A program made the translations under genes and the position numbers. The notes under the pieces are model-generated. The model was not told the origin of the DNA, did not search any database, and saw only the letters and a list, made by a program, of their open reading frames with translations. From Aporhodopirellula aestuarii (GTDB taxonomy: Bacteria > Planctomycetota > Planctomycetia > Pirellulales > Pirellulaceae), in the NCBI RefSeq assembly GCF_023701485.1, contig NZ_JAMQBK010000012.1, positions 1 through 64,000 of the forward strand: a DNA stretch of 64,000 bases. The letters run 5' to 3'. This document shows positions 13,430-32,500 of the stretch, one piece after another. Numbering within the stretch: position 1 is the first letter of the stretch; each line of letters starts with the position of its first letter.

Positions 13430-13432
13430 TCC

Positions 13433-15888: not shown

Positions 15889-15890
15889 CG

Positions 15891-18450: not shown

Positions 18451-19829
18451 TTTGTTACCTGCGGTTGGTTGGTATCGTCTGGCGCGAAGTCGAGCGGCAC
18501 GCCCTTTTCCTTGGCGTAACGGATAGCCTCAGCGGTGGCGTCGATATTGTCCTTCCACACAAAGCCTTTTTCAGCCGCGATTCGCATGGGGTTGTCGAAG
18601 CCACAGCGGACCGCTTCCCTATCGCCACGGGTCTCTCTGGACTTGTCCCACCAGGGAGTTGAGTTCTTGGGAATCCAAGTGAAGTCCACATCGCTGACCC
18701 GCATTCCTTTCGGGAGAAACAAGCGATCGTCACGGACCCACTGGCGAAGTTTCCAAACGGTGTATTCGGAACGAGCGGTGACCTGGTCCTCTCGCTTCTC
18801 CTGGCACGAATGCACGTAGTTGAGCCATTCAGCCCTGCCCCCGTGGAATGTGCTTCGCTCACCATCGAACAGTGACAGAGGTAGGTCGAGAGCCTTGAGC
18901 GATAGCATGATGCATAGACGGGTGAACGACTGAAACTCCGTAGATGGCTGCCTCGACTCAAGCATCTTTGCGTCGTCACCGGGCGATAGCTGCATGAACT
19001 GAGGGCGGTCAAAACTCATCGAGTAGTCTTCCTGGCTGCCCTCCTCGTCATCAGGATCGCCTCTAAATTCGTCAGGCTCCCTCGTGATAGCCATCGCGAA
19101 TATCTGCGCAACTTTCGCCCTCGCTTGCGCTAGCTCAACCGACTCCTTGAGGTCACGGAGAGGTGCAAGCGATGCAGTTAGCGGGCTGACCCCCCGTACC
19201 GCGTCCGCCGCAAATCTTTCGCCAAAGAATCCGTAGTGAATGACATTGCGGGCATCGATCTGCCTCTCATTCACCCGCTCCATGTACCCACTGCGGGAGT
19301 GAACGCAGTACCGAAGTGGGCGTCCTGTCTCCGACACCAGAACGCCGTTGATCCATTCTTCACCCTTCGCAGGTCGCGATGGATCTCGAATTAAGTCAGC
19401 CTGTATCCCCTGCAATTGCCCCGAATCGGTCTTTACCAGTAGGCAATCACCATCCAGCACACGGCGTGCTTCCGCGATTCTCCATAGCTTTTCGCGGTTA
19501 AATTTTCCTGCAACGTCGGCTTGCGATCGCAACGAATCCTCTTTCATGAGAGTCTCAATGCGGTCGTTCAGACTATTGCTGTCGGTCTGGCAATTAAACG
19601 TGAATGCAGAAGTGTACGAGAGGTGCTGACGGACAGCCCACGCCAGAACAGACATGTTTCTCTGCAAGTCAGACGCGTTCGCCTGCAGCGAGCGATGCTT
19701 CGCACCCCGATGGTGATAGTCCTCTCGGTAGACCTGGCTAGAGACGCTTTTACGTCGCCCCTGTGGGGTCAGCGCGTCGTACGTGAAGGCGTCCTTCACC
19801 CATTTAACAGGATTGCGAATGAAACTCAC
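18447..19829 (-). CDS. Portal protein, lambda gpB type
   Basis: A 460-residue protein of the lambda-type portal family. Recognisable blocks are the N-terminal MSFIRNPVKWVKDAFTYDAL, RNMSVLAWAVRQHLSYTSAF, the central DARNVIHYGFFGERFAADAV followed by RGVSPLTASLAPLRDLKE, and the C-terminal EWLNYVHSCQEKRED. Length is close to the 450-550 usual for the family. It forms the dodecameric DNA gate. Flanked by a connector-like gene (2-bp gap) and the protease (4-bp overlap). Confidence 0.9.
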   Translation of the reverse strand: MSFIRNPVKWVKDAFTYDALTPQGRRKSVSSQVYREDYHHRGAKHRSLQANASDLQRNMSVLAWAVRQHLSYTSAFTFNCQTDSNSLNDRIETLMKEDSLRSQADVAGKFNREKLWRIAEARRVLDGDCLLVKTDSGQLQGIQADLIRDPSRPAKGEEWINGVLVSETGRPLRYCVHSRSGYMERVNERQIDARNVIHYGFFGERFAADAVRGVSPLTASLAPLRDLKESVELAQARAKVAQIFAMAITREPDEFRGDPDDEEGSQEDYSMSFDRPQFMQLSPGDDAKMLESRQPSTEFQSFTRLCIMLSLKALDLPLSLFDGERSTFHGGRAEWLNYVHSCQEKREDQVTARSEYTVWKLRQWVRDDRLFLPKGMRVSDVDFTWIPKNSTPWWDKSRETRGDREAVRCGFDNPMRIAAEKGFVWKDNIDATAEAIRYAKEKGVPLDFAPDDTNQPQVTK

Positions 19830-19831
19830 CG

Positions 19832-20056
19832 CTACTGCCCCGTCACGTTCACGCTAACAAACAACGGGTTACGTCCCTTGCCTCCCGGCAAACGGGCGTA
19901 GAGGTTGCGCCGTTCCTTCCTCAGCGAATCGTGATCGACTCGCGTGGTGGTGCCGTCAACCGTCACCGACGTAACTCCAGACGCTAGTATCTCATCGATT
20001 TCAGAGATGCGCTTACGCGTGACGCTATCTTCGTAGACGTTTCTTTCTTCTGCCAT
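19832..20056 (-). CDS. GpW-like head-tail connector
   Basis: A 74-residue protein from the ATG at 20056 (upstream in-frame ATG at 20086 also possible). A helical N-terminus (SVTRKRISEIDEILASG) is followed by a beta hairpin (VTSVTVDGTTTRVDHDSL) and another helix: the layout of gpW. In lambda the gpW gene lies between the terminase and portal genes, as here. The small size limits certainty. Confidence 0.65.
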   Translation of the reverse strand: MAEERNVYEDSVTRKRISEIDEILASGVTSVTVDGTTTRVDHDSLRKERRNLYARLPGGKGRNPLFVSVNVTGQ

Positions 20057-20105
20057 GCCTAAAAACGTATGGCTGGCATGGTCCACAAAAAACGCTCTGG
20101 CGTGA

Positions 20106-20387
20106 CTACTGCGGAACGTCGACCAATGAATGCTCGATGTCTACCCTGCACTGACCACACGACCGGCAGCGAGTCCGCCGCCATGTGATGCGGTTGTACG
20201 GTTGGCCGTCGCGTGTCGTGCCTGATATCTCGCGTGTCTTCACCCTGTGGTAACGGTCACGCTTCACGGACAAGCATTTCGGGCAACGCGACTTTGCCTC
20301 TTTGGGTTTTTCAACTTGCGGCTGCGTCTGCGGTTCAGTCCGTGGTGTAGCTGGCTCTGCATCGAAGCTGGTAAGAAGGTCTGACAT
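20106..20387 (-). CDS. Small zinc-ribbon protein
   Basis: A 93-residue protein with two CxxC pairs, CPKC (Cys35, Cys38) and CRSC (Cys74, Cys77), the signature of a zinc ribbon. A proline/glutamine-rich leader precedes it. It lies between terminase and connector genes with an 11-bp gap to the terminase stop. It may bind DNA or assist packaging; not proven. Confidence 0.65.
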   Translation of the reverse strand: MSDLLTSFDAEPATPRTEPQTQPQVEKPKEAKSRCPKCLSVKRDRYHRVKTREISGTTRDGQPYNRITWRRTRCRSCGQCRVDIEHSLVDVPQ

Positions 20388-20398
20388 GTTTTCGCTTT

Positions 20399-22636
20399 CT
20401 AAATTTTAAGTTCCGTGATTCCGTACTTCCGACGCTTACGTTTGGTGGTGTCGGACTGTCCAACACCGCTGGATGCTCTTTGCTTAGCGAACACGCCCAG
20501 AGTGGATGCCAGAGCGCAACACCCAACCATGCAGTCCCAGTAGTCGTTGTCGATGATTCCGCTCTGAGTGTTTTTCCAGATGACCATTTCGGTTCCATCC
20601 TTGCCTCGCGCCAGCATGGGGTACTCTGCCTCGCAGTGCTCACCGATCATTAGGTGATTCTCCGGGGTATCGTTGAACAACAAAATTGACTTCTGGCTTG
20701 TTTCGGGGATCGTCAACGCTTCGGCTACATGGTTCTTCCAGGCATTGGTATCTACCTGCAACGTCGGAACGCCTCTCTGTCCCTTTGGTGGTGGCTTCAG
20801 GGCAACGTTGATTCCTCGGGTGCGTTTCATCTTGCCGCCACCCATTCGTTGCCAGTGTCGCGTGTCAGGCCCCACATAGCGGCCCTGCATAGGCACCAAC
20901 ATTGCCCGGTGTGGTGACTGCAACGCGAAGTCGCGTAGCTCGTTCGCCACGAGCTTGAATCCGATATCGAAACCGACCTTGTCGATGGAATGAACCGCAT
21001 CGCCTTGGATGTATTCTCTTGAAAACAGATCAGCGGTTAGTTCATCCATCGCTTGGGTAACCTGGTCGCCCAGCGTGGTGTGCTCTCCATACAAGTCGTC
21101 GAAGGTCTGGTGTAGCGAGTCCTTCGTGAAGTAGTTGGTCTTCTGATCGGGGAACGCTCCACGGTCGATGACATAGCCCCGCCCGTTAAGCGTGAAGCCC
21201 ATGATCATCCACGGAAGAAACTTAGTTTGCACGTCAACGAATGCCGTGATGACCTCGATACCGTTTGGCAACTCGCCGCGATCAAACGGGCTGACTCGAT
21301 TGGCTATCTCTTCAGCGTTGAGGTCCCATAGGTCGGATGATGCCACCGGCTTATCGCTGAGAGGCTTGAGCATTTGTTCCGCAGCAAAGGCTGCCTCGCT
21401 TTTGCTTTTCAGAATCATCGCTCTGTGTAAAGCTGACTCCTCGTTGGATTTATCAAATCGCTCTTTCCACAGCATTTCATGGGAGTCATGAAGCTGGTCG
21501 AAATGGTCTCTGACGAATTTTCGGCTCTGGGTGTGCTTGCTGTCGTCTGCCTCTAATTCGATTAAGTAGAGTTCAGACCACTCATTCCAAAGCTCCATGG
21601 CCTCATCAGTGGGCCATTTGAGGACCAAAGGCAGGCACTCTCCTCTCCAGTTGGGAGAAACCTTTCGATCAACGAGTGAGTCTGCTGTATCGCCACTTCT
21701 GATGATCGTGACGGCTGCCAGAGCAGCTATCGTCTTGTCCCCGCCCACCATATTCAGAGCATCACCATTGATGGTCTCTAATCGCTTCCGGCTTGCTGGC
21801 TTGGAACTCGCTGAAGCGCGCGTCTGTGGATCGTCGACCATGAGCGCATCGACTCGCAGAGTTTCACCCGTGTGGGTTAGGTGGGTCTGGCCACGCATAG
21901 ACCCAGCAATGGAAACCGTGGTGAACACGAAGTCGTTTGTCTCGACGCCCTCGATGAAACCTGAAGCAATCTTCTTGGCGTTCCACACCACGCCGGTACG
22001 TGTTCCATTGGAGTGCTGTCCTTCGCAAAGTGAAGAACGTCCGCCAGTGGAATACAAGCAAAAAAGCTCCCTAGCGAAATCGGCTTGGATGAGCCTGTTA
22101 AATAGGATTATTAGCTTGACATTTCGAAGTTGGTGCTTTGCCTCGTCATTGCTGCATGAAATCAAGCAAACGTATCTTCTCCGGCCAGTCAGAACTGCCC
22201 AGAGGCAAGCTCTAATCATGATTGAAGATTTGCCGATTCCGCGAGGAAGGGCTATAGCGGCTTGTCCGCCGCCCTCAAGCGTGTCCTGGATCTTCCGAAT
22301 GAGCCGCTTTAACTCAGGCGGGAACTCAAGCGGGAAAGTGTCTGGGTAGTAAGCACGCAGGTGATACTCCAGGTCAGCGTCTGAACGCTTTCGCCGCTCG
22401 GCATCCCCAAGTCCAACCGGTGGCGATCCGATGTCTTGACTCGACCGGGTTGCTGCCTTCTGGGCCTTGGCGGACGCTGCCCGCATCTTATCGGCGCGAG
22501 TCATCCCCGGCTGACCACCGGCTAGCTCTGCCTCGATGTCAGCAACCGCCTGCTCTATTAGCGAGAGGTCGTCTGCATCGGTTGCCAACTCAAGTAGCTT
22601 ACTTAGCTCAGCGGGATCAATCGCTGGCGCTGTCAC
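20399..22636 (-). CDS. Terminase large subunit, GpA type
   Basis: A 745-residue packaging motor and nuclease. The ATPase has Walker A PRGIGKSS (131-138, Lys136) and Walker B VDALMVDDP (262-270). The nuclease half begins near residue 460 with VITAFVDVQTKFLPWMIMGF, a strand carrying the first metal-binding Asp. Length agrees with GpA-type subunits (600-700) with an extra N-terminal helical extension of about 100 residues. The start overlaps the candidate small subunit by 20 bases. GpA-type enzymes usually cut at cos sites. Confidence 0.92.
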   Translation of the reverse strand: MTAPAIDPAELSKLLELATDADDLSLIEQAVADIEAELAGGQPGMTRADKMRAASAKAQKAATRSSQDIGSPPVGLGDAERRKRSDADLEYHLRAYYPDTFPLEFPPELKRLIRKIQDTLEGGGQAAIALPRGIGKSSIMIRACLWAVLTGRRRYVCLISCSNDEAKHQLRNVKLIILFNRLIQADFARELFCLYSTGGRSSLCEGQHSNGTRTGVVWNAKKIASGFIEGVETNDFVFTTVSIAGSMRGQTHLTHTGETLRVDALMVDDPQTRASASSKPASRKRLETINGDALNMVGGDKTIAALAAVTIIRSGDTADSLVDRKVSPNWRGECLPLVLKWPTDEAMELWNEWSELYLIELEADDSKHTQSRKFVRDHFDQLHDSHEMLWKERFDKSNEESALHRAMILKSKSEAAFAAEQMLKPLSDKPVASSDLWDLNAEEIANRVSPFDRGELPNGIEVITAFVDVQTKFLPWMIMGFTLNGRGYVIDRGAFPDQKTNYFTKDSLHQTFDDLYGEHTTLGDQVTQAMDELTADLFSREYIQGDAVHSIDKVGFDIGFKLVANELRDFALQSPHRAMLVPMQGRYVGPDTRHWQRMGGGKMKRTRGINVALKPPPKGQRGVPTLQVDTNAWKNHVAEALTIPETSQKSILLFNDTPENHLMIGEHCEAEYPMLARGKDGTEMVIWKNTQSGIIDNDYWDCMVGCCALASTLGVFAKQRASSGVGQSDTTKRKRRKYGITELKI

Positions 22637-22934
22637 TCAGGCTGCCCTTTAGCGATTCGATCCTTTTCGCAAGCTCGCTCTTTCGGTCGCCGACGTTCAA
22701 ATTCAGGTTCAGCGAATGCGTTTGCCGGGGCTGTTCGTCCAGGTTGAGCTTGTCCATGGCAGCGAGGGCCTTCGTGGCAGATACCACCAAACGCCCGTTG
22801 CTTTTAGGGTCGCTGATAATCTGAAGCAAACGGTCAACGGCTGCGTTCCGCTGGTCCATCGTCATCGGCCAACGGTTGTTTGCTGCGGTCTGAATTTGCA
22901 CGCAATCGGCTCTCGTGTGGATTTCCATGGACAA
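22617..22934 (-). CDS. Candidate terminase small subunit
   Basis: A 105-residue protein directly before and overlapping terL by 20 bases. It has a helical N-terminal half (MDQRNAAVDRLLQIISDPKS) and a C-terminal helical segment (DRKSELAKRIESLKGSLSDS). I see no certain HTH. Position is the only strong argument; the HTH protein at 23576-24385 is the alternative small subunit. Confidence 0.5.
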   Translation of the reverse strand: MSMEIHTRADCVQIQTAANNRWPMTMDQRNAAVDRLLQIISDPKSNGRLVVSATKALAAMDKLNLDEQPRQTHSLNLNLNVGDRKSELAKRIESLKGSLSDSASD

Positions 22935-23210
22935 TGCCCCTACCCCCTGGCGAGTAGCGTTTCGTGAGATTTTCTTCTTGCCTGTTCCCTGTGACGGTCA
23001 GCCTTTGCGAACCCCAAGAAGGACCCGCAACGTTTTTCAAAACGAAAACACGCAGAATCCAGGGAAATGCAGGGGATAGAAGTGCTCTCAAGAGCCATCG
23101 CGAACGCCTTTGTGTTGGTGGCAACGGTGCGTCTCATTGCCAACCATCGTTAGTGCGGACCCGTCCAAGATCAATAAATGCGGACCCTGGGGAGCGCGGA
23201 ACGGGTGCGG
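22935..23210. other. Non-coding gap beside terminase; possible cos region
   Basis: 276 bases with no convincing gene, next to the packaging genes. It contains a 9-base direct repeat (TGCGGACCC) at about 23155 and 23180. GpA-type terminases normally have cos beside the small subunit gene, so this is the first place to look. I cannot identify the nicking sites by eye. Confidence 0.3.
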
Positions 23211-23579
23211 CTACTCACTAAGCCAAACGAGGTCGTCACCCTCTGGCTGGTGCGTGAATGTGTACATGTAGGTATCACGGCCATCGTGTGCTGACACGTA
23301 GCTACCGATAACAGGCGAGAGGTAGGACGGGATAACGCGGTCCTGAAGCGTGTCGAGTCGCCTGATTGCTCTCACGATCAGCGTGTGCGGTCCGTTCTTT
23401 TCTTGGTCGAACGCTGACTCTGCGACGAAAGACGGGACGCAAAACATGAACGAGAGGACTCGCTTGTCTGATTTAGCCATCGTGGCGTGGACTACTACGG
23501 TGTAGGGGATCTCTGATAGAGCCTCACGGCAGGCGCTGACCTCCGGTCCTTCCATTTCCTCTGTCGTCGCTAGCCTCAT
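23211..23579 (-). CDS. Hypothetical protein in packaging module
   Basis: A 122-residue soluble protein; its start overlaps the stop of the upstream HTH gene (ATGAG, 4 bases). Segments such as IPYTVVVHATMAKSDKRVLS and GPHTLIVRAIRRLDTLQD suggest a beta-alpha-beta fold. No family recognised. Confidence 0.6.
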   Translation of the reverse strand: MRLATTEEMEGPEVSACREALSEIPYTVVVHATMAKSDKRVLSFMFCVPSFVAESAFDQEKNGPHTLIVRAIRRLDTLQDRVIPSYLSPVIGSYVSAHDGRDTYMYTFTHQPEGDDLVWLSE

Positions 23580-24385
23580 TGGTTCGCTCCTGTAGCTGGG
23601 GGCTGGGCTGAATCAGTGTCGTCGTCGATGTCTGTCTCCATGTCGTAGTCGGACAGGTCGGGGCGAACTCCCATCGCTTTCACGTCGCGGGCACAGACGC
23701 CATAGTCCGCCGCCACCTGTCGATAATGGATACCAGCAAGTAGCAACTCGACCACCTCCTTCATCTCGTCCGGTGAGATGGGAAGTATCCTGTCCCCGTA
23801 CTCGTCGAACCGCATCAGCCTGGGCAATGCCATATTGCGATTACTGTCGATCGCCTTGACGTAGGCGGACTGCTTTTTTTTGCTTTTGTCGCTTCGTCGC
23901 CCCAATATGCGTTTGACAGTCGTCCGTGGCACTCCCAATTGACGCTCGATGTCATGCGGGGATAGCCCTCTATCACTGGCGTCGCGTACCGCCTGCCGCG
24001 TAGCTGGGTCTGTATGCTGTTTGTTTCTGTCGGTGTCCGCTTTCGGTGCCTCGGATCTCTCTTCTCCCTCTGATCGCGCCCAGTATGCCTCTACACTCAT
24101 TTGGTAAATCTCTGGCAGCGGCTCCCCGCCGATACGCTCCAGCGAAGAGAACCAATCCCACCTCAGCAGACGGTTGCCGGGAAGCATCGCATCAATCTCA
24201 GTCTCGATCGTCATCGTCAAGGCGATCGACTCAAGCGACTCATAGAATCTCGTCATTTCGACCAAACCGGGGGCGAAGCCCTGGAATGCGTACATATTGA
24301 GGGACGGCGTATCCCAGCGGATGCGGTCTACTATCTCCTCAGTCGGGCGCGTGAATACCTGAGTCACTACGGTCGGCATGGGCAA
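23576..24385 (-). CDS. HTH DNA-binding protein of the packaging module
   Basis: A 269-residue protein with a Hin-recombinase-like helix-turn-helix at ~127-160 (ATRQAVRDASDRGLSPHDIE, then RQLGVPRTTVKRILGRR), and a second HTH-like segment at ~205-235 (VELLLAGIHYRQVAADYGVC). The C-terminal tail is acidic. Its 5' end overlaps the gene for the triple-HNH protein by 47 bases. It could be the terminase small subunit, which often binds DNA through HTH motifs, or a late regulator. Both remain open. Confidence 0.7.
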   Translation of the reverse strand: MPMPTVVTQVFTRPTEEIVDRIRWDTPSLNMYAFQGFAPGLVEMTRFYESLESIALTMTIETEIDAMLPGNRLLRWDWFSSLERIGGEPLPEIYQMSVEAYWARSEGEERSEAPKADTDRNKQHTDPATRQAVRDASDRGLSPHDIERQLGVPRTTVKRILGRRSDKSKKKQSAYVKAIDSNRNMALPRLMRFDEYGDRILPISPDEMKEVVELLLAGIHYRQVAADYGVCARDVKAMGVRPDLSDYDMETDIDDDTDSAQPPATGANQ

Positions 24386-26855
24386 GCAATGCTGTGGCTG
24401 CGGGGATCGGCAGGCTAAAGATGCGTGCCACGTCGTCAGGCGATTTGCCGGATGAAACTAGGCTGGATAGTACAGCGTCCATACGCAAGACCCGCTCGAC
24501 TCTCGCCAACTCGTCAACGCCAATACCTGCCTCACGCGCAGACCCTGGTAAACTCTCTCCCCACGAAAGGAGGTCCAACGCTAGCCGGTATTGGTCAACG
24601 GTCGCCTCTGTGGTGTCCTCGATCAGGCGAGGTCGTTTGTCTTGCGGTTGCTGCCTAGGCGGCATGTCTACGAAATCGACAAACGATCTACTCGGGCGAA
24701 TGATCACGCCATCATCGATCAGGTGATCGAGAACCACCCGGTACTGACTCTCGCTGAATGTCGCTTCCAGAATATCGCCGGGGCGAAACCTACCGCTCGC
24801 GTCGACGTTGGCCGCAATGCGCTCGTCGATGTCGGCTGGCAGGTCGTCATAGCACGAAAGAGAACAACGGACACGCAGGGCAAGCACCTTTCGCTGATAC
24901 GGGCTAGCCTGGAGCGAATCCAGGTAGTCCTGCCACTGCCACGGCGCCAAGTGGACCCGTGCGTGGTAACGCTGCCAACCTGCTCTTGTGATGATGCCAT
25001 GTTTGATCGCGCGACCGACCCTGGACTGGTATGGGGCATCGGTGAAGCCTATTTCACGACACACCTCGCTGCGGCTGACTGTGACGTATCCGTCGCGGTT
25101 CATATCCCGAACGAATCGCTCGCTAAGTCTGCGCTCAATCCCAACGTCGACCATCATCGACACTACTCGCTCTCGCTGCTCTGCGGTGGCTGGCGCAACA
25201 GTCACAGTCTCAACGTCGCGATATGTCAAACCGGCACGTGCTAACCAGACACACCTAGCACTGACGCCAAGGCGACGCGCGAACTCTGGGGTCGATACCT
25301 CGGGATGCGAACGTATATCGAGAACCTGCGAAGTAGTAAGCACATGCCCCGATGACCGTGAACCATCGGCAGGCTTGCGTTTCTCCCGAAGGAACAGGCT
25401 ATCTAACGCACCAGTACGGCGGTCGCCATCGCAGTCGACCGAGTATCCACGTGGCACCTCACCACGGAACGTACACCAAACCACGGTGTAGGCGTCGTAG
25501 TTCGCCAGCTTTCCATTTCGCGGAAAACTACAACGGCTGGAACCATCGCCATACGAGCGACGCGCGTACCGGATGGCGCTATGGCGAGCATCGTAGTAGG
25601 CGATGCTACCGCTAGCGGAGGCGTATAGCGCCTCCTCGTCTGGAGTGCGACGGAACTCATCGCCGTCGAATATAATCACGTCATCGCCGTCCCAATCGCT
25701 CACCGGCATCATGCGCTGCTGCGAAAGGTATCGGATCTCCAGATTCTCCAGCCGAGCGTTTTCGCTGTTGCCGTCAATGGGTGCCGGGTACATGGATTGC
25801 GGGATCTTGCCGCGAAACGCTCTCCACACGAGTGCCGCAACGGATCGCCTAACCTGCCTATCGCCATCAATCAGCCTCGCGGCGACGACCGGTCTGCCTC
25901 GCTTGTCGTGCCCTCGTTTTTTCTCGCCGATCTTCCTGCCGCACACCGGCCCAATCACGCGCCCTGACCTACTGACCCAGATGCGATCCAGACCTGGAAC
26001 GAGACGAAACTCCTCGCCATCGTGCTCAACCACATCGCTATCGAATCGCTCCACCCTGTCCCCAAGCTCACGGAACTGGTACAGCCCACAGGAAATGCGA
26101 CTCAGCACACCCGACCTAACGAACGAGACCAACGCGAGCGTCTGCTGGCGAGTGGTCAGCGATGTCGATGCCACACGGTCAGCATGGTCAAGCCGAGCTA
26201 GACCACCGACCAACATGCGAGACACAAGCCATCTGAGAACCTCCCTGTGGTGCTCTCTAGTCGCCAATGGCAACGCTTGATTCAACACTCGCTCACGGTC
26301 ATCAGACGAGGCGAGAAACCGCTCTGGTGGCTTGCGTCGGATGCCAAGGATGCGTGGCTCCATGCATCGCAACTGCCGGGCTATTTTTTTCGTTGATAGC
26401 GGTGACGTGAGGATGTGCTCAATCTCGCTGTCGGTGAATCGCTCCTCGATCGGCACTGGGGCCATGTGCTCACATCTACCATCGGCCATGATATCAGCAG
26501 TAACGCTACTTGGAGTGTCGCATCGTAGGTTTGCGAGTGCAGCATTCGAGACGTCGCCATCGTGATGCCAGATGGACATGCCTGACGGTCGATCGCCGTG
26601 GAACGCCTCCCAGACCAGATGCCGAACCTCACGGGTGACGTTTTTGCCACGCCGCCCAAGGCTAAGCGTTACGGCCTGTGATCCAGCACGCCTACCGGTG
26701 TGCCGCGTCCTACCGCGCATCCGAAGCGGTTTACGGCGCGGTGGCCAGTGAGATGGACCGCCTTTGCGCATCGTCCAAACTGAACCATCGATCCCGGCGT
26801 AGTAGCCGGTGTGACCTGGAATCGGTCGCAAACAGAAGTGCCATGCCGGTGCCAT
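24339..26855 (-). CDS. Triple NUMOD4/HNH-like module protein
   Basis: An 838-residue protein at the head of the late operon. Three modules share a NUMOD4-like segment (YxxGIDGSVW / IWVSRSGRVIG / LYASASGSIAY), a HNH_3-like segment (xxLVWxAFxG...DGDxxN), and linkers. Module A (7-113) keeps the active-site His79, His97-His98, Asn104 and Asn109. Module B (283-375) has Ala340 and Pro-Ala in place of the histidines but keeps Asn366 and Asn371. Module C (400-490) lacks both histidines and the final Asn (Asp485). HTH-like segments follow A (141-175) and C (507-545). The C-terminal 290 residues are helical, with winged-helix-like stretches. The ATG at 26855 follows GAGGCGAAAGC. HNH proteins beside terminases can be needed for packaging (as HK97 gp74). 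Function here is unproven. Confidence 0.8.
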   Translation of the reverse strand: MAPAWHFCLRPIPGHTGYYAGIDGSVWTMRKGGPSHWPPRRKPLRMRGRTRHTGRRAGSQAVTLSLGRRGKNVTREVRHLVWEAFHGDRPSGMSIWHHDGDVSNAALANLRCDTPSSVTADIMADGRCEHMAPVPIEERFTDSEIEHILTSPLSTKKIARQLRCMEPRILGIRRKPPERFLASSDDRERVLNQALPLATREHHREVLRWLVSRMLVGGLARLDHADRVASTSLTTRQQTLALVSFVRSGVLSRISCGLYQFRELGDRVERFDSDVVEHDGEEFRLVPGLDRIWVSRSGRVIGPVCGRKIGEKKRGHDKRGRPVVAARLIDGDRQVRRSVAALVWRAFRGKIPQSMYPAPIDGNSENARLENLEIRYLSQQRMMPVSDWDGDDVIIFDGDEFRRTPDEEALYASASGSIAYYDARHSAIRYARRSYGDGSSRCSFPRNGKLANYDAYTVVWCTFRGEVPRGYSVDCDGDRRTGALDSLFLREKRKPADGSRSSGHVLTTSQVLDIRSHPEVSTPEFARRLGVSARCVWLARAGLTYRDVETVTVAPATAEQRERVVSMMVDVGIERRLSERFVRDMNRDGYVTVSRSEVCREIGFTDAPYQSRVGRAIKHGIITRAGWQRYHARVHLAPWQWQDYLDSLQASPYQRKVLALRVRCSLSCYDDLPADIDERIAANVDASGRFRPGDILEATFSESQYRVVLDHLIDDGVIIRPSRSFVDFVDMPPRQQPQDKRPRLIEDTTEATVDQYRLALDLLSWGESLPGSAREAGIGVDELARVERVLRMDAVLSSLVSSGKSPDDVARIFSLPIPAATALLAHADRSDSGIHAPD

Positions 26856-26933
26856 GCTTTCGCCTCGCTAGTGTCTCGGATATCACGAGAACTAGCTAAC
26901 GACGACTGACGGTCACGTCATAACGCGATGGCG

Positions 26934-26999
26934 ACGGCGCACGGTCTGCCAGCGCGGCAGACCGAGAAAACGTTGGGTTTTTCGCGTTTTTTGAGAAAT
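26934..26999. promoter_or_regulatory. Palindrome copy 1 upstream of the late operon
   Basis: GGTCTGCC-AGCGC-GGCAGACC, a perfect 8-bp inverted repeat within an identical 23-base block at 26942-26964 and 30961-30983. Flanks of about 20 bases on each side also match the second copy, but in inverted orientation. It lies ~90 bases upstream of the 838-residue gene. Operator, origin or recombination site are all possible. Confidence 0.6.
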
Positions 27000-27020
27000 G
27001 CCGGTTGGCGACAATGAATG

Positions 27021-27048
27021 AAAAACACCCCCCTGTGTCGCCGGGGGG
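27021..27048 (-). terminator. Rho-independent terminator of the 27.1-27.8 kb genes
   Basis: On the minus strand, CCCCCC-GGCGACACA-GGGGGG is followed by TGTTTTT. It sits 77 bases after the stop of the 99-residue gene and before the late operon. Confidence 0.65.
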
Positions 27049-27124
27049 ATCGGATGCCGGGTTGTTGCGCCTCCCCGCACCCCGCGCGGCAATCTCCCGT
27101 TTTTGATTGCCGATTTGCCAAACG

Positions 27125-27424
27125 CTACCGAAGCGATGCCGATAGCGAGTCTACGATCGTGTGAGTGGTCGACTCGATGTCACAGAAACGCCACTGACCG
27201 TCTAACTCGCTGGCTAGACCGATGGACTCTAGGTATTCCAAGATTGCCGAGACGGGGATTCCCGCTTCGGAACCTCTGATCGTCTCAACGTCGTCGGTGA
27301 TCTCGTCGGCGGTTAGGTCTCGGCGTGACTGTTTGAGCAATTCGGCAACCAACAGAACGCGGTCGATCTGACCTAGTGACGGGTGCGCGTCGATCAGACG
27401 CTGACGTGATGACTCGATGGTCAT
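27125..27424 (-). CDS. Small winged-helix-like protein
   Basis: A 99-residue protein from the ATG at 27424; the frame extends upstream but the long arginine-rich leader overlaps the previous gene and is unlikely to be translated. The order helix-helix-helix-beta (LTADEITDDVETIRGSEAGI, ISAILEYLESIGLASE, GQWRF) resembles a winged helix. A regulatory role would fit. No family identified. Confidence 0.55.
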   Translation of the reverse strand: MTIESSRQRLIDAHPSLGQIDRVLLVAELLKQSRRDLTADEITDDVETIRGSEAGIPVSAILEYLESIGLASELDGQWRFCDIESTTHTIVDSLSASLR

Positions 27425-27546
27425 GATGTGCCTCGCAACAATAGAAGGTGAACGGTAGTAAGTAACGTTCCCTGGATCGCGACTCGCCCGGTTGCGGCGG
27501 GCGTTTGCTAGTCGTGCAATCAATATTGCGAGTTGCCGAAACGGCG

Positions 27547-27846
27547 TCAAGCGGTTTTTTCGTCGATTCCGGTTGGCCTCACACGGCAACACCAATAGAG
27601 GATGTCAGTTGCCAGATCCGACTCCTCATGTTCCCGTTCCAGCTCCCCCATGACACGCTCAGGATCGAGAACGTCACAGATACGCCTGCGAAGGCTTTCG
27701 ACCTCGTCTATCATCGACTCGTCAGCGGTCAACGGCGTCAATCTGACTAGGTACGAAAGGCAATACCGCAGGCGGTCACTTCGTGGCGCGTCAGCGCACA
27801 TTGAGTCAATGCACTGAAAAGCAATCTGGTGAACGTACTCGCTCAT
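27547..27846 (-). CDS. Small hypothetical prophage protein
   Basis: A 99-residue helical, acidic protein (YVHQIAFQCIDSMCADAPRS, DEVESLRRRICDVLDPERVM). No signal peptide or known domain. It is the first gene of a short minus-strand unit followed by the winged-helix-like gene and a terminator. Confidence 0.55.
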   Translation of the reverse strand: MSEYVHQIAFQCIDSMCADAPRSDRLRYCLSYLVRLTPLTADESMIDEVESLRRRICDVLDPERVMGELEREHEESDLATDILYWCCRVRPTGIDEKTA

Positions 27847-27935
27847 GGTGGCTCACTGTGTAGGACGGAATCATGCCGGAAATAGAGCACGCCGGACGGC
27901 AACACGCTAGCTAGGCGGTCCATGCTGCCAATCCA

Positions 27936-28032
27936 TTGAACCAACCCTCCCGTGCCGTACACTGCTATCTATCAGTACGGACATGCTGATAACCTTTGGC
28001 CGCGCCCGGATCACTCCGGGTGCGGTTTTTTT
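27936..28032 (+). ncRNA. Candidate small RNA cassette 1 (plus strand)
   Basis: Sigma70-like boxes TTGAAC (27936-27941) and TACACT (27958-27963), 16 bases apart. They are followed within ~40 bases by the hairpin CCGCGCCCGGA-TCAC-TCCGGGTGCGG and seven T (terminator 28000-28032). No open frame of note. It lies opposite to and between two minus-strand genes. Confidence 0.4.
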
Positions 28033-28177
28033 GCGCGATCATTTTGCCTTGACCAACGGCGTGAATCCCAAACGCTCTCGGCCTGCTATGCGGGAGAATC
28101 GCAGTGATCGGCGATACGTCTCCGAAAGAGAACACCCACAGGAAAACTCCAGCGAAACAGAGTCTCCCGTTCTTGTT

Positions 28178-29038
28178 TCATTGAAATGTTGGGCCGTCCC
28201 CGGTTCCGCCTGTCTTCCACCAGTCCGCAGGGTCGTCGTCCATTCCTAACATTTTTCGCATTCGCTCCATGACCTCCGCGTCTATCTCAATCGCCTTCGC
28301 ATCTCGCAAGTCGTATTCAGGTTTGCCGAACATTCCATAGAGAACCTCTAGGAACTCAAGCAGCGTTACACCATGCGTCTCCGCCTTCCCTGTGCTTTTG
28401 CCGCCCCACCCACTGAGTGACGCGATCGCTTCTACACGGATCGACAGCCCGCAGATATCGCCGAAAAACTCGCTCGCTTTACGGCCAAGCGTAGTACCAC
28501 AATCCAGGCAATCAAAATTTGACACCATAGAGTCCAGGCGACTCCAAAAACGCAATTCTCCCGACTCTTCGTCGTTGTAGACCGAAACTTCTCGCCAAAT
28601 GCGAAGCACGTTTGCCGGGATCTCGTCAAGAACCTGAATCTCTTCACCAACGGTTTCGTATCCTGGACTCACTCCTAACTTTCCGGTTGGCGAGCGGTCT
28701 CGTACATGCAACTCCCGCACATCGCACCCGGTGAACTGCGTCAAAAACTCAACCATGTCGTCGCTCTCGCTCACCGCGTCGAAAACGTGTGCCACCGTCA
28801 CAGATGGATGAACCTCCACGTTCTGCTTCAACCATTTCATCGAAATCGGAGTTGCAACCTCCCATCGCTGGGTTGCGCGGCTGTGGTGAAGCAGGATAGC
28901 TCCTTTGTTTGTGAATTTAACCGTCACTGCTTTGACTCCATGGATGTTTATTCTTGTGTCTTCCCGACATCGACAACGACTCCCAACAAGTCCCATCGCC
29001 GATGCTTCAATCTGCGGCGAACCGACCGCCGCCGTCAA
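28178..29038 (-). CDS. Hypothetical prophage protein
   Basis: A 286-codon frame; the true start may be downstream (ATG at 28996 or a later alternative codon), since the first ~30 codons are arginine/cysteine-rich. The body is soluble and mixed alpha/beta, with blocks like HPSVTVAHVFDAVSESDDMV and LEFLEVLYGMFGKPEYDLRD. A CxxC pair (CLDCG, ~residue 176-180) may be part of a metal site. It lies downstream of the primase gene. Family not recognised. Confidence 0.6.
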   Translation of the reverse strand: MTAAVGSPQIEASAMGLVGSRCRCREDTRINIHGVKAVTVKFTNKGAILLHHSRATQRWEVATPISMKWLKQNVEVHPSVTVAHVFDAVSESDDMVEFLTQFTGCDVRELHVRDRSPTGKLGVSPGYETVGEEIQVLDEIPANVLRIWREVSVYNDEESGELRFWSRLDSMVSNFDCLDCGTTLGRKASEFFGDICGLSIRVEAIASLSGWGGKSTGKAETHGVTLLEFLEVLYGMFGKPEYDLRDAKAIEIDAEVMERMRKMLGMDDDPADWWKTGGTGDGPTFQ

Positions 29039-29134
29039 GCCCCAGTGCAGTGGCGACTGGGATAGCGCTCTTCAAAGTATGAGCAACGACTAGATTCGGT
29101 GACTACCGAACCAACGGAAGAAGTGCCAAAACTC

Positions 29135-29250
29135 TTTAACCGCAACCATCCCGATGCTATTTTGAACGCACTGGAAACGGATCGCGGAATTCGGACACCG
29201 CGATGTGGTTCGCGCCGTGTCTCAGCTAACACTGGGGCACGGCTTTTTTT
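29135..29250 (+). ncRNA. Candidate small RNA cassette 2 (plus strand)
   Basis: TTTAAC (29135-29140) and TATTTT (29158-29163) with 17-base spacing. Then a hairpin ATCGCGG...CCGCGAT (~29181-29204) and a 12-bp terminator stem GCCGTGTCTCAG / CTGGGGCACGGC with a 6-base loop (29214-29243) and seven T. No coding frame of note; the flanking genes run on the other strand. Confidence 0.4.
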
Positions 29251-29298
29251 CGCCACCGCGCATTTCCTTTGTCGGTCTTCTGGTTTCGTCCCTCGATG

Positions 29299-30684
29299 CT
29301 ACGCCGCCGTAGACAATATCGGGACTCTCTCCCGTGTCAGAAGCTCAATCGGGCAGTATCTCGGACGCCTATTCCTCAGCACAAACCCTCCCCTCCCCTC
29401 TCCTCGATCACAGGTTGTAGAAAGTCTTCTTCTTAGTTGTTTTTCTTGCGGGCTGTTGCTGGCTGTTGGGATCAAGGGAGAGGAAAGGGAGTCTTCCAGG
29501 GAGACAAGGATATCAACCTGCACAGAATCAAGAGCCCATCGCATCGCGAACCCATCGACCTTTTTCCCGTTGACCGTTTTCGGGTGGAAGCTGTAGCGGT
29601 TGTCTTTCATGTTGATCAATTCAGCATCCACGAAAGCGTTGCGAATCGCAGCGAAGCGAGAGGCATTGAACCCTCGGTCGGTCACGCCGTGTTGACGGCA
29701 GAGGTTCCATGTCTTGCGAAAACGCTCAGTCGGCATTGATCCGTCGTCGTTTGCTGATTCTGAAAACGCATGAAGCATCGCCAGAAACAAAGAAACGTCC
29801 TCGCATTTGACAGAAAGCGACTTCTTGCCATTCACGCTGAAAGTCATGTGTCGCATGATCGCCATCGCTTCGTCGTGCCGGTCAATCACGTCCTGTCGTG
29901 AAAGCATGAGAGAATCGTTGCCCGTGCTAGCATTCAGTTCGATCCTGCCTGACGGGTTCGCTGCCACCCGCTCGCGACGTACTGAATCTTGCTGGCGTGA
30001 TTCATCCTGATTATCGTCGACCAGCGTCATTACGTCGCTGAGGTGGACGCGAGAGGTTGTTTCGATCGCTTCCAGGTTGCGGGGTAGTTTGCACGCTTGC
30101 CCGAAGTCAACGTCAGGAAGTCCCTTTGCCGTCCAAGTGTCGAAAGACGGCGTGCCTTTGATTTCGATCACGTCGAATTCATACCCGCGATTCTTCGCGT
30201 AGTCGGTGAGCCATCGACCGAACGCGGCCAATTGCTTGCGAACAGATAGCGTGGTGTCCTTCGCGCTGCCCAGCCAGTCCCACTCCATGACCAAGTAGGC
30301 GTGGGCGCCACTGCCGCTTGTGGATGGTTCGGCATGGAGCCCAGGGAAGAACTCGCGTTTGAGTTCCGAAGCAACTGCCAATGCTTCTGTGATGTCGCCT
30401 AGCTTGTGGCAATCAATGTCGAGACAGATCAGACCGCGATGCGCCTGCGACGTGTAGAAATACGTTTCATCGCGATCGCGATGCTCAACGAACTTTTTGT
30501 TCGTCCAGGTATCGAGCCAGACATTTTCGCGACCGGACTGGTTTATGTGGGCGCGAGTGTTTACACGTTTGATATTCTTGTGCCCCGACGGTTTGCCCTC
30601 TTCGGTGGGAAGCAGATGCAGGATGTCCTTCGGGTGGATGAAAGATCGAAGTGACCGAATCGCATCTTTGGTGCTTTGTTCCAT
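29299..30684 (-). CDS. Archaeo-eukaryotic-type primase (AEP)
   Basis: A 461-residue protein from the ATG at 30684 (Shine-Dalgarno AGGAGCGAAA just upstream; the ATG at 30756 lacks one). The AEP catalytic pattern is visible: LICLDIDCHK (Asp89, Asp91), STSGSGAHAYLV (His128) and EFDVIEIKG (Asp171), followed by KLPRNLE. These bind metal and nucleotide in primase-polymerases. Residues ~290-420 form a helical domain. No helicase motif is present in this protein or elsewhere in the prophage, so it probably primes replication with host helicase help. Confidence 0.8.
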   Translation of the reverse strand: MEQSTKDAIRSLRSFIHPKDILHLLPTEEGKPSGHKNIKRVNTRAHINQSGRENVWLDTWTNKKFVEHRDRDETYFYTSQAHRGLICLDIDCHKLGDITEALAVASELKREFFPGLHAEPSTSGSGAHAYLVMEWDWLGSAKDTTLSVRKQLAAFGRWLTDYAKNRGYEFDVIEIKGTPSFDTWTAKGLPDVDFGQACKLPRNLEAIETTSRVHLSDVMTLVDDNQDESRQQDSVRRERVAANPSGRIELNASTGNDSLMLSRQDVIDRHDEAMAIMRHMTFSVNGKKSLSVKCEDVSLFLAMLHAFSESANDDGSMPTERFRKTWNLCRQHGVTDRGFNASRFAAIRNAFVDAELINMKDNRYSFHPKTVNGKKVDGFAMRWALDSVQVDILVSLEDSLSSPLIPTASNSPQEKQLRRRLSTTCDRGEGRGGFVLRNRRPRYCPIELLTRERVPILSTAA

Positions 30685-30740
30685 TTTCGCTCCTGGTGGT
30701 TGGTGACCGCCAAGAGGTAGAAAGTGAAAACCAAGCCCGG

Positions 30741-30831
30741 TATAATTCGGTTTCAACCTTGGTTTGCTGGTTTCTTACCTCTCAGCAAATATCGGGCGTC
30801 CGCGATTCACCGTCGCGTGACGCCTTTTTTT
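30741..30831 (+). ncRNA. Candidate small RNA cassette 3 (plus strand)
   Basis: A consensus -10 box TATAAT (30741-30746) without a good -35, then ~50 bases, then the terminator hairpin GGCGTC-CGCGA...TCGCG-TGACGCC (30795-30824) and seven T (30825-30831). It lies in the leader of the primase gene, on the opposite strand. No coding frame of note. Confidence 0.4.
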
Positions 30832-30925
30832 ATGGGACTATGCGATAGGGTCATTTGCTAGGCTTCGCCGACAGCACAAAAACGCCGCTGATTCACTCGC
30901 GTCCATGGCATGACGCAGAAAGACG

Positions 30926-30990
30926 ACAACGCGAAAATCGCAAAAAACGCCGTGTTTTATCGGTCTGCCAGCGCGGCAGACCGTGCGCCG
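30926..30990. promoter_or_regulatory. Palindrome copy 2 upstream of the primase gene
   Basis: The identical 23-base palindrome block (30961-30983), with flanks that match copy 1 (26934-26999) in reverse orientation: the box ACGGCGCACGG lies to the right here and to the left there. It sits ~280 bases upstream of the primase start. Confidence 0.6.
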
Positions 30991-31096
30991 TTCAGAAAAG
31001 TCACGGTCGCGGGAAGTAAGAGGGCACGATAATCGTGCCGCATATCTGAGAGTGTACGGGGACATGGTCGCTCGATGACGGGAGGTCAGACGCGAC

Positions 31097-31188
31097 TTGA
31101 ATCCAGGTTCTGGTGCCCTATCATCGACGCGTCTCTTTGACGAGCCTCGGTGGTCACTGTATTGCGACACAGATCACCGGGGCTTTTT
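31097..31188 (+). ncRNA. Candidate small RNA cassette 4 (plus strand)
   Basis: TTGAAT (31097-31102) and TATCAT (31119-31124), 16 bases apart: the best promoter match of the four. Then a terminator with a 12-bp stem GCCTCGGTGGTC / GATCACCGGGGC (31144-31155, 31172-31183), an inner TGT/ACA pairing, and five T. No coding frame of note. Confidence 0.45.
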
Positions 31189-31246
31189 CGTGCGCTCCTT
31201 GTGAGCGCGGGACAATCACCGTCTTGGCGAGCCTCTATCTTCGGAG

Positions 31247-31766
31247 TGAATCCCGATCGACGCAAGACACGCATTCGTCATTTCTCGGCGATACAACGCA
31301 GAAAAGGCCGACAAGAAAGAGTCGCTGAAACGCGGTGATTTCCCGATGCCCCAAGCTGGGGCAACGGGAGGAGCAACCGCTGAAAAGGCAGACAAGAAAG
31401 AGTCGCTGAAACGCGGTGATTCCCCGTTCCCTCAAGGTGAGGGAACGGGAGTACAACGCGGCTAAGAAGTCGGAGAGCGAGCGGGCGTCCAGTGGCGGCA
31501 AAGCGAAGGCAAAAACTGGTGAGAGACCAACCGTTTCTGCTAAGGGACAAAATGTCCCAAAGCAGGATGGAGGCGAGAGGTCGTCTGTCAAGATCGCAGA
31601 AAAGCACGGCGTCAACGAGAAGACGATTCGTCGTGACGCAGTCCGCGCGGAGCTTCACGACACAGTGAAATCGGCACGAGTCATCGTCGGCTCAATCGCC
31701 AAGGCAGGCTATCGGTTGTTTCTTGACGCTGCCTGTCCCAGACGCATATCAGACGCCCATCTGTGA
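31247..31766 (+). pseudogene. Degraded ParB/HTH-like gene with a duplicated segment
   Basis: A plus-strand frame is open from ~31247 to a TAA at ~31462 without a good start. It contains two in-frame copies of AEKADKKESLKRGD. A second frame (from ~31450) then reads EYNAAKKSESERASSGG and VKIAEKHGVNEKTIRRDA, the HTH pattern of phage/plasmid ParB-like proteins, before losing similarity where it overlaps the serine recombinase gene. The two frames together look like one frameshifted, 5'- and 3'-truncated gene. Confidence in the family is moderate. Confidence 0.45.
31298..31451 (+). repeat. Two 73-bp direct repeats, 81 bp apart, each ending in a hairpin
   Basis: Copies at 31298-31370 and 31379-31451. 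The first ~45 bases are nearly identical. The 3' ends differ but both fold: CCCG-A-TGCCCC / GGGGCA-A-CGGG (31342-31368) and CCCGTTCCCTC / GAGGGAACGGG (about 31423-31449). Two base pairs differ by paired changes that keep the stem. Confidence 0.7.
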
Positions 31767-32079
31767 TCAGATCCCAATAGGGGCAATCTACGGGCATCTC
31801 TCGCGAGAAGCGATCGGATAGCGTGCAGACTATGAACGCGCCACGCTTGTTCGCCATCGTCACCGCTTGGTGCCTTGCTGGTAGCCGCTTTGCGCTGCGA
31901 GCGTCACCAGTACCGATTTCACTGAACGCCCCCGCGACGATTAGACCAGCCCGTTGGCAGTAGTCCAGGCAATCCTCCAGTTGATACGAGAGGCTTGAGC
32001 CAGATGTTGCCTGCGGTGACGTGCTCACACGGCAGTAGATCACTGCTTCTGTAATGGTGGCTTGCTGGTGTTCACTCAT
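31681..32079 (-). CDS. Orphan serine-recombinase catalytic domain
   Basis: A 132-residue protein with the resolvase/invertase catalytic core: YCRVSTS (Arg17, nucleophile Ser19), then LSDRFSRE (Asp89, Arg90, Arg93). There is no C-terminal DNA-binding HTH or large-serine-recombinase extension, so it is either truncated or a stand-alone domain. Its ATG overlaps the stop of the excisionase-like gene (ATGA), implying coupled expression. Role is unknown; integration is served by the separate tyrosine recombinase. Confidence 0.75.
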   Translation of the reverse strand: MSEHQQATITEAVIYCRVSTSPQATSGSSLSYQLEDCLDYCQRAGLIVAGAFSEIGTGDARSAKRLPARHQAVTMANKRGAFIVCTLSDRFSREMPVDCPYWDLITDGRLICVWDRQRQETTDSLPWRLSRR

Positions 32080-32312
32080 TGCCTAGCGTCCTTTTTATTC
32101 GTCGCCTGAATGAATCGCGTGATCGCTTGCCGACTCGTCAGCGTTGCATGGCCGATCTTGATCGTTTCTAGTTTTGCGCCCCGCACCGGTCTCTGAGTCC
32201 ATCTCCATACCGTGCTGATATGCGGTTGCGTCGGTATCTCTTTCGCCGCCTCCGATATGGAGATCAGGTCTTCGGTCAGCAGGTCTAGCGTCGGTTTAGT
32301 CTTGGTCTGCAT
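32076..32312 (-). CDS. Excisionase-like HTH protein (DUF1580-like)
   Basis: A 78-residue protein from the ATG at 32312 (GGAGC 8 bases upstream); an upstream start at 32384 is less likely. LISISEAAKEIPTQPHISTV followed by WRW and a short wing (LETIKIGHATLTSRQAITRF) fits small MerR/Xis-type winged helix proteins, and resembles DUF1580, which I recall as common in planctomycetes. Placed directly after the integrase gene, it is the best candidate for the recombination directionality factor. Confidence 0.65.
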   Translation of the reverse strand: MQTKTKPTLDLLTEDLISISEAAKEIPTQPHISTVWRWTQRPVRGAKLETIKIGHATLTSRQAITRFIQATNKKDARQ

Positions 32313-32436
32313 GAGTGTTTGCTCCGTGGCTGATGTGTTCCTCTTAGTGCTAGCGGCTGCGAATCGAATTGCAACCTTTCGCATTGGTCTTCATTTACAA
32401 AGACGCAAAGCCAATCCAACTGGGACGCTAAAAATA

Positions 32437-32466: not shown

Positions 32467-32500
32467 TGAGGGCGTTTTGGTGTCGCTCGATTGAGACCGG

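Follow-up and report, generated by a model that had tools for sequence, protein, structure and literature searches.

An 838-residue prophage protein with three HNH_3-type modules upstream of the terminase genes: a candidate DNA-binding factor derived from a homing endonuclease

Introduction

What would a temperate phage do with an 838-residue protein built from three nuclease-like modules and encoded beside its terminase genes? The common view of free-standing homing nucleases is that they are selfish passengers; here one is kept under selection though it is without a catalytic residue that nearly all of its relatives have. Two phages carry it at the same position ahead of their packaging genes, and module duplication appears to have enlarged it in one of them.

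Nuclease folds are already known to have been reused for reading DNA in Smad MH1 and WhiA, which derive from other nuclease families. The MH1 domain of Smad is a degraded homing endonuclease by the title of Grishin (2001), as cited in PMC4999995, and WhiA is described as a regulator related to homing endonucleases (PMC3781837). Both represent the same reuse of a nuclease fold for DNA binding after the loss of catalysis; they differ from the present case in belonging to other hosts and in not being tandem HNH_3 modules in a phage. A narrow keyword search of the literature found no description of a tandem HNH phage protein.

Results

Genomic setting of the gene

The window, a stretch of 64,000 nucleotides of Aporhodopirellula aestuarii DNA, contains a prophage in which the gene lies on the minus strand upstream of the packaging genes. 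The features of the region are as follows.

3880..33887, strand not assigned, prophage between 24-bp exact att-like repeats (3880-3903 and 33864-33887, in the 3' part of tRNA-Pro)
32501-33913, integrase
27021..27048, minus strand, terminator-like hairpin with T-run, read by eye, separating the 838-aa gene from the genes that precede it
24339..26855, minus strand, 838-aa protein with three HNH_3/NUMOD4-type modules, ATG start (Pfam, Smith-Waterman, window-free profile)
23576..24385, minus strand, following gene, encoding a protein of 269 aa that has two HTH segments (HTH_23)
22617..22934, minus strand, gene directly before TerL, TerS-like by position (83% identity in the related phage L042; no Pfam match)
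20399..22636, minus strand, large terminase (TerL), GpA type with nuclease domain (PF20454 79.5 bits, phrog_38)

Two genes (269 and 122 aa) separate the 838-aa gene from the TerS-like gene, all on the minus strand. The 269-aa protein is matched by the gene at the same position in phage G489 (27% over 82 aa, E 1.3e-6). The preliminary description had the 838-aa gene heading the late operon; this agrees with the window, where the hairpin lies upstream, and does not extend to L042, in which the gene is not the first in its gene run. The GC hairpin (27048-27021) has a 9-nt loop and is unlisted by the terminator scan.

A 23-bp palindrome upstream of the gene was considered as its own operator and rejected, being absent from L042 although the gene is present there (the check spans 20.2 of 36.0 kb, including the protein's gene). 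The same palindrome occurs twice in genome G010, for which no A-type match is listed by the family search; its occurrence does not follow that of the gene.

Three modules in one chain

Within the protein, the following parts were delimited.

26496..26855, minus strand, module A (residues 1-120), I-HmuI-type (Pfam HNH_3 39.3 bits; alignment to 1u3e; family columns)
26070..26495, minus strand, unit A tail (residues 121-262), HTH and wHTH-like segment (AF2 helices; 40% identity to L042)
25701..26063, minus strand, module B (residues 265-385), HNH_3-like (Pfam HNH_3 26.4 bits; 25.5 bits in the window-free model)
25356..25703, minus strand, module C (residues 385-500), HNH_3-like (19.7 bits in the window-free model, 13.3 in the broader one; B-C Smith-Waterman 87)
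24921..25358, minus strand, unit C tail (residues 500-645), HTH-like, resembling the unit A tail
24342..24938, minus strand, C-terminal region D (residues 640-838), helical (AF2)

The reading frame and its three modules are real. With bases taken as independent, at their composition, residues 261-838 would be free of stops by chance with a probability of about 1e-9. The whole protein matches Pfam HNH_3 (PF13392) with 66.4 bits in two stretches; in a piecewise search modules A and B both exceed the curated cut-off of 24.8 bits, and module C gives no Pfam HNH_3 match. Pairwise Smith-Waterman scores of 80 (A-B), 74 (A-C) and 87 (B-C) were reached by none of 300 shuffles. A window-free profile, trained without sequences of the window, L042 or the multi-module protein L061, gave module A 46.0 bits and the modules B and C the scores listed above, with shuffle maxima of 5.3, 4.4 and 6.7 (500 shuffles each, any reported score being yielded by 499 for A, 391 for B and 410 for C). 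In a later, broader model the scores were 49.3, 22.2 and 13.3 bits, module C being the weakest (E 0.021). Homology of the modules to HNH_3 endonucleases is supported by these results, and the three-module architecture first read by eye is upheld, with HNH_3 similarity found by profile searches in B and C too, although C lies below Pfam detection. In the tree, B and C are both long branches, unplaced and without support.

The best structure match is I-HmuI (1u3e), in Foldseek searches with the model of the full chain as well as with that of module C. The full-chain AF2 model is of low quality (mean pLDDT 53.9; 24-67 by blocks in B and C) and its match to 1u3e has an rmsd of 17.9 without a stated aligned range. 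The AF2 model of module C, which leans on an 8-row homologue alignment, has a pLDDT of 75.3 and matches 1u3e with E 1.0e-3, TM 0.58 and rmsd 3.0.

HTH-like segments had been proposed to follow two of the modules, and they are found as the tails of units A and C, which are similar to each other (Smith-Waterman 47, reached by 1 of 300 shuffles). In the unit A tail, AF2 places helices at 136-181 and 184-257 (pLDDT 71-85 over 141-210, lower beyond), and a weak AbiEi_4 match at residues 242-261 (E 0.003) is under the cut-off. A fragment of the unit C tail matches phrog_2104 (E 0.0018) and HTH_11 (E 0.062). Region D, with no convincing family match, includes a winged-helix-like segment near 652-720, the AF2 pLDDT being 59-75 over 641-720.

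Catalytic positions and selection

The third residue of the HN(H/N) set is a metal ligand in I-HmuI-type enzymes. The catalytic residues of I-HmuI are described as D74, H75 and N96 (PMC12724721). Alignment to 1u3e and the family columns place H97 of module A at I-HmuI H75 and N109 at I-HmuI N87. Module A carries in H97 the histidine at the H75 position that marks active I-HmuI-type endonucleases; the Asn or His at the N96 position, equally a mark of such enzymes, is missing in A, in B and in L042. MAFFT alignments put V118 of module A and a Leu of L042 in this N96 column (the profile alignment ends short of it in both rows). In the D74 column, the profile alignment has W96 of module A, with W in L042 as well. 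Among relatives having a letter in the third column, 44 of 47 have N or H there, a count that leaves out the window, L042 and L061 rows; in the proteins that group with A and L042 (clade support 96/84) the residue is N in 7 of 7.

The preliminary description of one intact and two decayed modules is only partly retained. Module A is not intact, with V118 at the third HN(H/N) position and Leu in its closest relative, the 53%-identical L042 protein. Of its proposed HNH residues, His97 and Asn109 are kept, whereas His79 is not the family's 'vHR' His: it stands in the family's Arg column, and the conserved His column holds R78 in the window and P in L042. H97, N109 and the 'HHDGD' segment are common to both phages. 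The decay of B and C was read correctly. Module B reads A/P/N/Q at the four catalytic positions (the N96 position by ungapped reading), having lost the catalytic His (P instead) and the third residue (Q instead) and kept an Asn at the N87 position; module C has neither His nor Asn at any of the four.

Module A and its tail are under purifying selection between the window and L042 phages. For module A, pN is 0.238 and pS 0.642 (two sequences only, with pS near saturation), the differences by codon position being 0.29/0.21/0.52; for the unit A tail, also from two sequences, pN is 0.445 and pS 0.730. As this selection acts on a module with the third residue missing, module A looks like a kept, probably non-cleaving protein. 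By parsimony, the loss of the third residue would predate the split of the two phages.

Relatives in other phages and genomes

The position before the terminase genes is shared by three phages. In L042 (TerL 71%) the protein consists of module A and tail only (271 aa, 53% identical over 260 aa). An A-type unit gene precedes the TerS-like gene and TerL both there and in G489 (27% over 261 aa in the latter), where an HNH-HTH-clamp-like fusion stands at the same place. The G489 protein keeps H-N-H; its module has no supported grouping with A, and its HNH-HTH stretch resembles unit C (34%, E 7.6e-6). The 'clamp-like' label rests on PHROG 947 and matches to genomic frames, and no clamp was found when its C-terminal part was searched against PDB sequences. 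Two further related phages, L120 and L122, have no HNH within 10-11 kb upstream of TerL. The three-module order is therefore not conserved beside terminases, L042 having one module, G489 one with a clamp-like part, and L120 and L122 none in that stretch.

Residues 261-838, searched alone, had zero relatives in viral contigs. Searches with the whole protein found no relatives in viral contigs and phage records and, among 60 relative genomes, one match, which was the protein itself. In viral contigs a two-sequence alignment, A1, recovered one distant HNH (L051) besides the L042 contig; it also found 6 of 241 family genomes (itself included) and, in genome contigs, 35 stretches, none of them confirmed. 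A scan with a TerL alignment found L042 alone in viral contigs and, in genome contigs, 173 stretches of which none was confirmed. A match in genome G525 (76 aa, 28%) was considered as a remnant of the gene and rejected as an Arg-rich chance match by eye, the HNH profile finding nothing there.

Discussion

The closest known likeness is to I-HmuI-type HNH homing endonucleases (PF13392, PDB 1u3e; PHROGs 1492, 959 and 59), with which the protein shares the NUMOD4-like N-terminal strand region, HNH_3 and an HTH tail. It differs from them in the missing third HN(H/N) residue of module A, in the two catalytically empty modules and second HTH tail added in one chain, and in length (838 aa, compared with 174 for the I-HmuI chain).

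The explanation that we prefer, and regard as evenly balanced between right and wrong, is a DNA-binding factor that derives from a homing endonuclease and was enlarged as modules were duplicated. Its ancestor would have been a free-standing I-HmuI-type (NUMOD4-HNH_3-HTH) homing endonuclease which became established between the early and the terminase genes of this temperate phage lineage. The third HN(H/N) residue would have been lost before the window and L042 phages split, and since the fold and HTH tail stayed under purifying selection, the resulting protein most likely binds a specific DNA site and does not cut it. The window lineage would then have added B, C with the second HTH tail, and D, giving a chain of DNA-binding units that may recognise a long or composite site. 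Purifying selection after the loss of a catalytic residue, as expected of a binder derived from a homing endonuclease, is found in module A, and the fold and the HTH tails suggest DNA binding by the units. A role in binding rather than cutting is supported as the most economical reading of the sequence. Modules B and C and region D are without relatives, and the evidence for selection is confined to module A and its tail. The low quality of the full-chain model and the upstream palindrome, which does not accompany the gene, also count against this explanation.

A rather less probable explanation is an active free-standing homing endonuclease or nickase, in which unit A would nick with a changed metal site, B and C would serve as targeting domains, and the place before the terminase would be an insertion hotspot. 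The I-HmuI type, with H97 and N109 kept, is consistent with this, as are the differing presence and form of the gene among related phages and the description of the region upstream of the terminase as a hotspot for homing-endonuclease-like genes in PMC10448857. It is opposed by the lack of the third residue in both A-type members, where nearly all relatives have N or H, and by L042, in which the gene has the same position ahead of TerL and the TerS-like gene. Two observations run against the DNA-binding factor from this side: the conserved H97, N109 and 'HHDGD' may reflect catalysis that persists in part or has changed, with a different metal ligand, and the kept H-N-H of the G489 protein, whose module has no supported grouping with A, may mean that the place is simply re-colonised by nucleases.

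That the protein is a dead or dying homing endonuclease without phage function, with B, C and D left over from a second endonuclease gene that was joined to it in frame, we consider improbable. The catalytic residues are incomplete in all three modules, 261-838 has no relatives, and unit C (HNH with HTH tail) has the look of a complete second unit, given the likeness of the tails and of the G489 stretch. The 838 stop-free codons argue the other way, as does the purifying selection seen in unit A when two phages, neither of which has the third residue, are compared.

HK97 gp74 and the GVE2-like packaging HNH proteins have a single module with an intact active site. A packaging helper of this kind, stimulating cos cleavage by analogy with gp74, which promotes it (PMC9410871), is very unlikely here: the gene does adjoin the terminase genes as in those systems, but the catalytic set is incomplete, L120 and L122 show no HNH in the 10-11 kb upstream of TerL, HNH_3 is the only HNH family matched in Pfam (E up to 5), the structure match is I-HmuI, and the terminase, of the GpA and not the HK97 type, carries a nuclease domain itself. 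The packaging proteins form a separate GVE2-like group in the description of PMC12724721, by which the I-HmuI-type protein of the window would fall outside it, and the analogy made in the preliminary description is weak.

For the DNA-binding factor, we favour a putative role in the early-to-late switch, in which it would control the late operon at whose head it stands in the window; another possibility is a function in packaging. More speculatively, and with considerable doubt, the switch protein may string together HTH units and catalytically empty homing-endonuclease folds so as to read a long composite site at the late operon or at the point where packaging starts. The T4 clamp gp45 acts in late transcription. 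As the same genomic slot is filled by the HNH-HTH-sliding-clamp-like fusion in the sister phage, both proteins would be DNA-tracking or DNA-reading late-gene factors. A tandem HNH_3 case in a phage would provide a traceable and directly testable series from cutter to binder, comprising the single unit without the third residue (L042), the triple (window) and the H-N-H nuclease with a clamp-like part (G489).

Several HNH_3-like modules in one chain occur likewise in the 447-aa protein of L061:122-1465 (genome G624), where three modules are detected and H, H and N stand at the catalytic columns in the last one only. It differs in belonging to the C/CVNP-type HNH_3 subclass and in having no A-type unit, and looks like an independent case. 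The L061 protein matches 541 phage records, of which two were examined: the protein of Streptomyces phage Coruscant has a tail and a single HNH module that scores just under the Pfam cut-off, and the two HNH features of Arthrobacter phage Bauer are separate genes. A genome of the same genus as the window (L062:8089) carries a vestige of the first 15 codons of the 838-aa gene, with 13 of 15 residues identical.

Three HNH_3-related modules

The 838-aa protein (24339-26855, minus strand) comprises module A (residues 1-120) with tail A (121-262), module B (265-385), module C (385-500) with tail C (500-645) and a C-terminal region D (640-838). Searched piecewise with Pfam HNH_3 (cut-off 24.8 bits), modules A and B scored 39.3 and 26.4 bits, and module C gave no match. 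An HNH profile trained on relatives alone and excluding the window, L042 (a viral contig of the closest relative phage) and L061 (a locus in genome G624), gave 46.0, 25.5 and 19.7 bits for A, B and C, against best values of 5.3, 4.4 and 6.7 bits among 500 shuffles each. Furthermore, Smith-Waterman scores between the modules were 80 (A-B), 74 (A-C) and 87 (B-C), each reached by none of 300 shuffles, and tail A resembles tail C (score 47, reached by 1 of 300). A later, broader HNH model scored module B at 22.2 bits and module C at 13.3 bits (E 0.021), which makes C the weakest module.

The AF2 model of the full chain was poor overall (mean pLDDT 53.9), with ten-residue blocks ranging from 52 to 90 in module A, from 25 to 67 in B and from 24 to 46 in C; module A and its tail form its sole well-modelled HNH unit. 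The only Foldseek match of this model at E <= 0.001 was the HNH_3-type homing endonuclease I-HmuI (PDB 1u3e; E 1.3e-4, probability 1.00), at an rmsd of 17.9 across 185 columns, their range in the chain not being given. When folded from an alignment of 8 rows, module C reached a pLDDT of 75.3; no Foldseek match fell at E <= 0.001, the best being again 1u3e (E 1.0e-3, TM 0.58, rmsd 3.0). The module C model is supporting rather than independent evidence, because the input alignment includes its homologues.

Catalytic residues

Catalytic positions were read against D74, H75, N87 and N96 of I-HmuI, the last of which binds the metal. PMC12724721 names D74, H75 and N96 as catalytic. The comparison drew on a 53-row alignment of relatives that excludes the window, L042 and L061 and in which some rows are closely similar. 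At H75, H appears in 51 of the 52 rows with a letter there; at N87, all 52 such rows have N (43) or H (9); at N96, 44 of 47 do so (N in 30, H in 14). Module A has H97, N109 and V118 at these columns and L042 has H, N and L, the N96 column being read in both from other alignments since the profile alignment ends before it. Seven proteins grouping with A and L042 (tree support 96/84) all carry N at N96. Column 74 is D, H, C, N or E in at least 41 of 52 relatives and W in both A and L042, and has less weight because those seven proteins carry C or R there. Module B has P, N and Q (the Q from an ungapped reading), and module C has neither His nor Asn at any of the three positions. The complete catalytic set is thus present in none of the modules: the decay of B and C described in the preliminary description is borne out, and the intactness of A is not, given V118. 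His79, there counted as an HNH residue, aligns with the Arg of the family 'vHR'; the His column of that motif is occupied by R78 in module A and by P in L042.

Prophage setting and relatives

The prophage spans about 30 kb, and its integrase gene adjoins the tRNA gene. On the minus strand, the integrase is followed by early genes, a hairpin, the 838-aa gene and a 269-aa HTH gene, and then by a 122-aa gene, a TerS-like small gene, TerL, portal, a 392-aa gene, the major head protein and tail genes.

3880-3903 and 33864-33887: prophage-end 24-bp repeats, exact copies of the 3' part of the tRNA-Pro gene
27048-27021, minus strand: GC hairpin with T-run, seen by eye
24339-26855, minus strand: 838-aa gene, between hairpin and 269-aa HTH gene
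Minus strand: TerL, GpA type (PF20454, 79.5 bits)

L042, an IMG/VR contig, matches the window at 71% in TerL, 78% in portal, 86% in the 392-aa gene and 80% in the head protein. Yet the counterpart of the 838-aa gene there specifies a 271-aa protein made up of module A and its tail (53% identity over 260 residues), and tblastn found no separate B, C or D within 20.2 of its 36.0 kb. Likewise, no relatives of B, C or D were found in 60 relative genomes and phage records (whole protein) or in viral contigs (residues 261-838). The open frame kept across B-C-D (P about 1e-9) is the one sign that these parts are maintained, and the selection that the preliminary description proposed from their persisting fold pattern is conjectural for them.

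In genome G489 (TerL 52%, portal 63%), a 447-aa protein (L119:10086-11429) occupies the same place, ahead of the terminase genes in a related prophage. It matches HNH_3 at 43.4 bits, keeps H-N-H as its catalytic residues, continues with an HTH stretch, and has the 'CLRPI-GH' start in common with module A; the gene after next resembles the 269-aa HTH gene (27% over 82 aa, E 1.3e-6). The G489 gene is likely orthologous to the 838-aa gene by sequence and place, and only likely because the tree gave no support for grouping its module with A. Its C-terminal part appears sliding-clamp-like (DnaN-like), matching PHROG 947 'DNA polymerase processivity factor' (E 5e-8) and 372-560 aa frames of other genomes, most of which look like dnaN judging from their length and location; no clamp was found with it among PDB sequences. 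Two further relatives by head genes, L120 (TerL 35%) and L122 (TerL 29%), have no HNH upstream of TerL across 10-11 kb; in this comparison the L121 sequence stops short of the region and L123 is matched by one gene only.

In G003, of the same genus, the gene's first 15 codons survive at L062:8089-8439 (13 of 15 residues) as a vestige within a prophage remnant, running on into foreign sequence that in another frame resembles, by eye, an integrase end.

Selection on module A

Over the 120 codons of module A, the window and L042 differ at 29% of first, 21% of second and 52% of third positions, against 72-76% at every position in a single codon-shuffle control. The pN and pS values were 0.238 and 0.642 for module A, 0.445 and 0.730 for tail A, and 0.215 and 0.683 for TerL, ratios that are rough with two sequences and pS near saturation. 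The constraint on module A since the split of the two phages has therefore been roughly as strong as that on TerL, although neither has the third catalytic residue.

On the most economical reading, an I-HmuI-type homing endonuclease gave rise to a DNA-binding protein that was kept before the late genes. The protein would have lost the third catalytic residue before the phages of the window and L042 diverged, and would have been enlarged later, in the window lineage; it may act in late-operon regulation, in packaging or through weak residual DNA nicking. A still-active homing nuclease is a less likely alternative, favoured by the position of the gene before the terminase genes, a region that PMC10448857 describes as a hotspot for homing-endonuclease-like genes.

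Tandem modules elsewhere

In a phylum sample of 392 genomes, 34 gave HNH_3 matches at E <= 0.001, and two matches within a single open frame were listed only for the 838-aa gene and for a frame in G624. Among HNH proteins from the collected loci, a non-random sample, 2 of 63 have more than one module. The G624 protein (447 aa, L061:122-1465) has three detected HNH_3-like modules of another subclass; a complete H, H, N set at the catalytic columns occurs in the last of them alone. Tandem arrays in which at most one site is complete thus seem to have two separate origins. A fourth module is visible by eye in the G624 protein.

Other features of the prophage

Second-codon-position G+C is 0.455-0.535 in four pieces of the 838-aa gene versus 0.431-0.439 in six other prophage genes. 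The composition of the gene thus sets it apart from its neighbours, perhaps because it is of foreign origin or because its chain is rich in Arg, Gly and Ser. A 58-nt inverted pair (79% identity; 26934-26991 and 30934-30991) contains the perfect 23-bp palindrome CGGTCTGCCAGCGCGGCAGACCG, one copy preceding the 838-aa gene and the other a 485-aa early gene. With its 5-base middle left free, the exact pattern is confined to these two sites within the genome of 9.07 Mb; among 13 genomes of the genus that were searched, 2 contain it, this one and G010, the latter with two copies 9.9 kb apart. G003 has a 2-mismatch copy at the corresponding place (L062:5890), matched also in 18 of 200 shuffles of that stretch. 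A phage regulator may use the palindrome as its operator.

Two 74-nt direct repeats (88% identity) lie at 31297-31451, with an 85%-identical counterpart in L042 at 1558-1643. A 132-aa ORF (31681-32079) matches the resolvase N-terminal domain PF00239 partially (37.4 bits, profile positions 1-79 of 145 alone), and is perhaps a truncated serine recombinase beside the tyrosine integrase.
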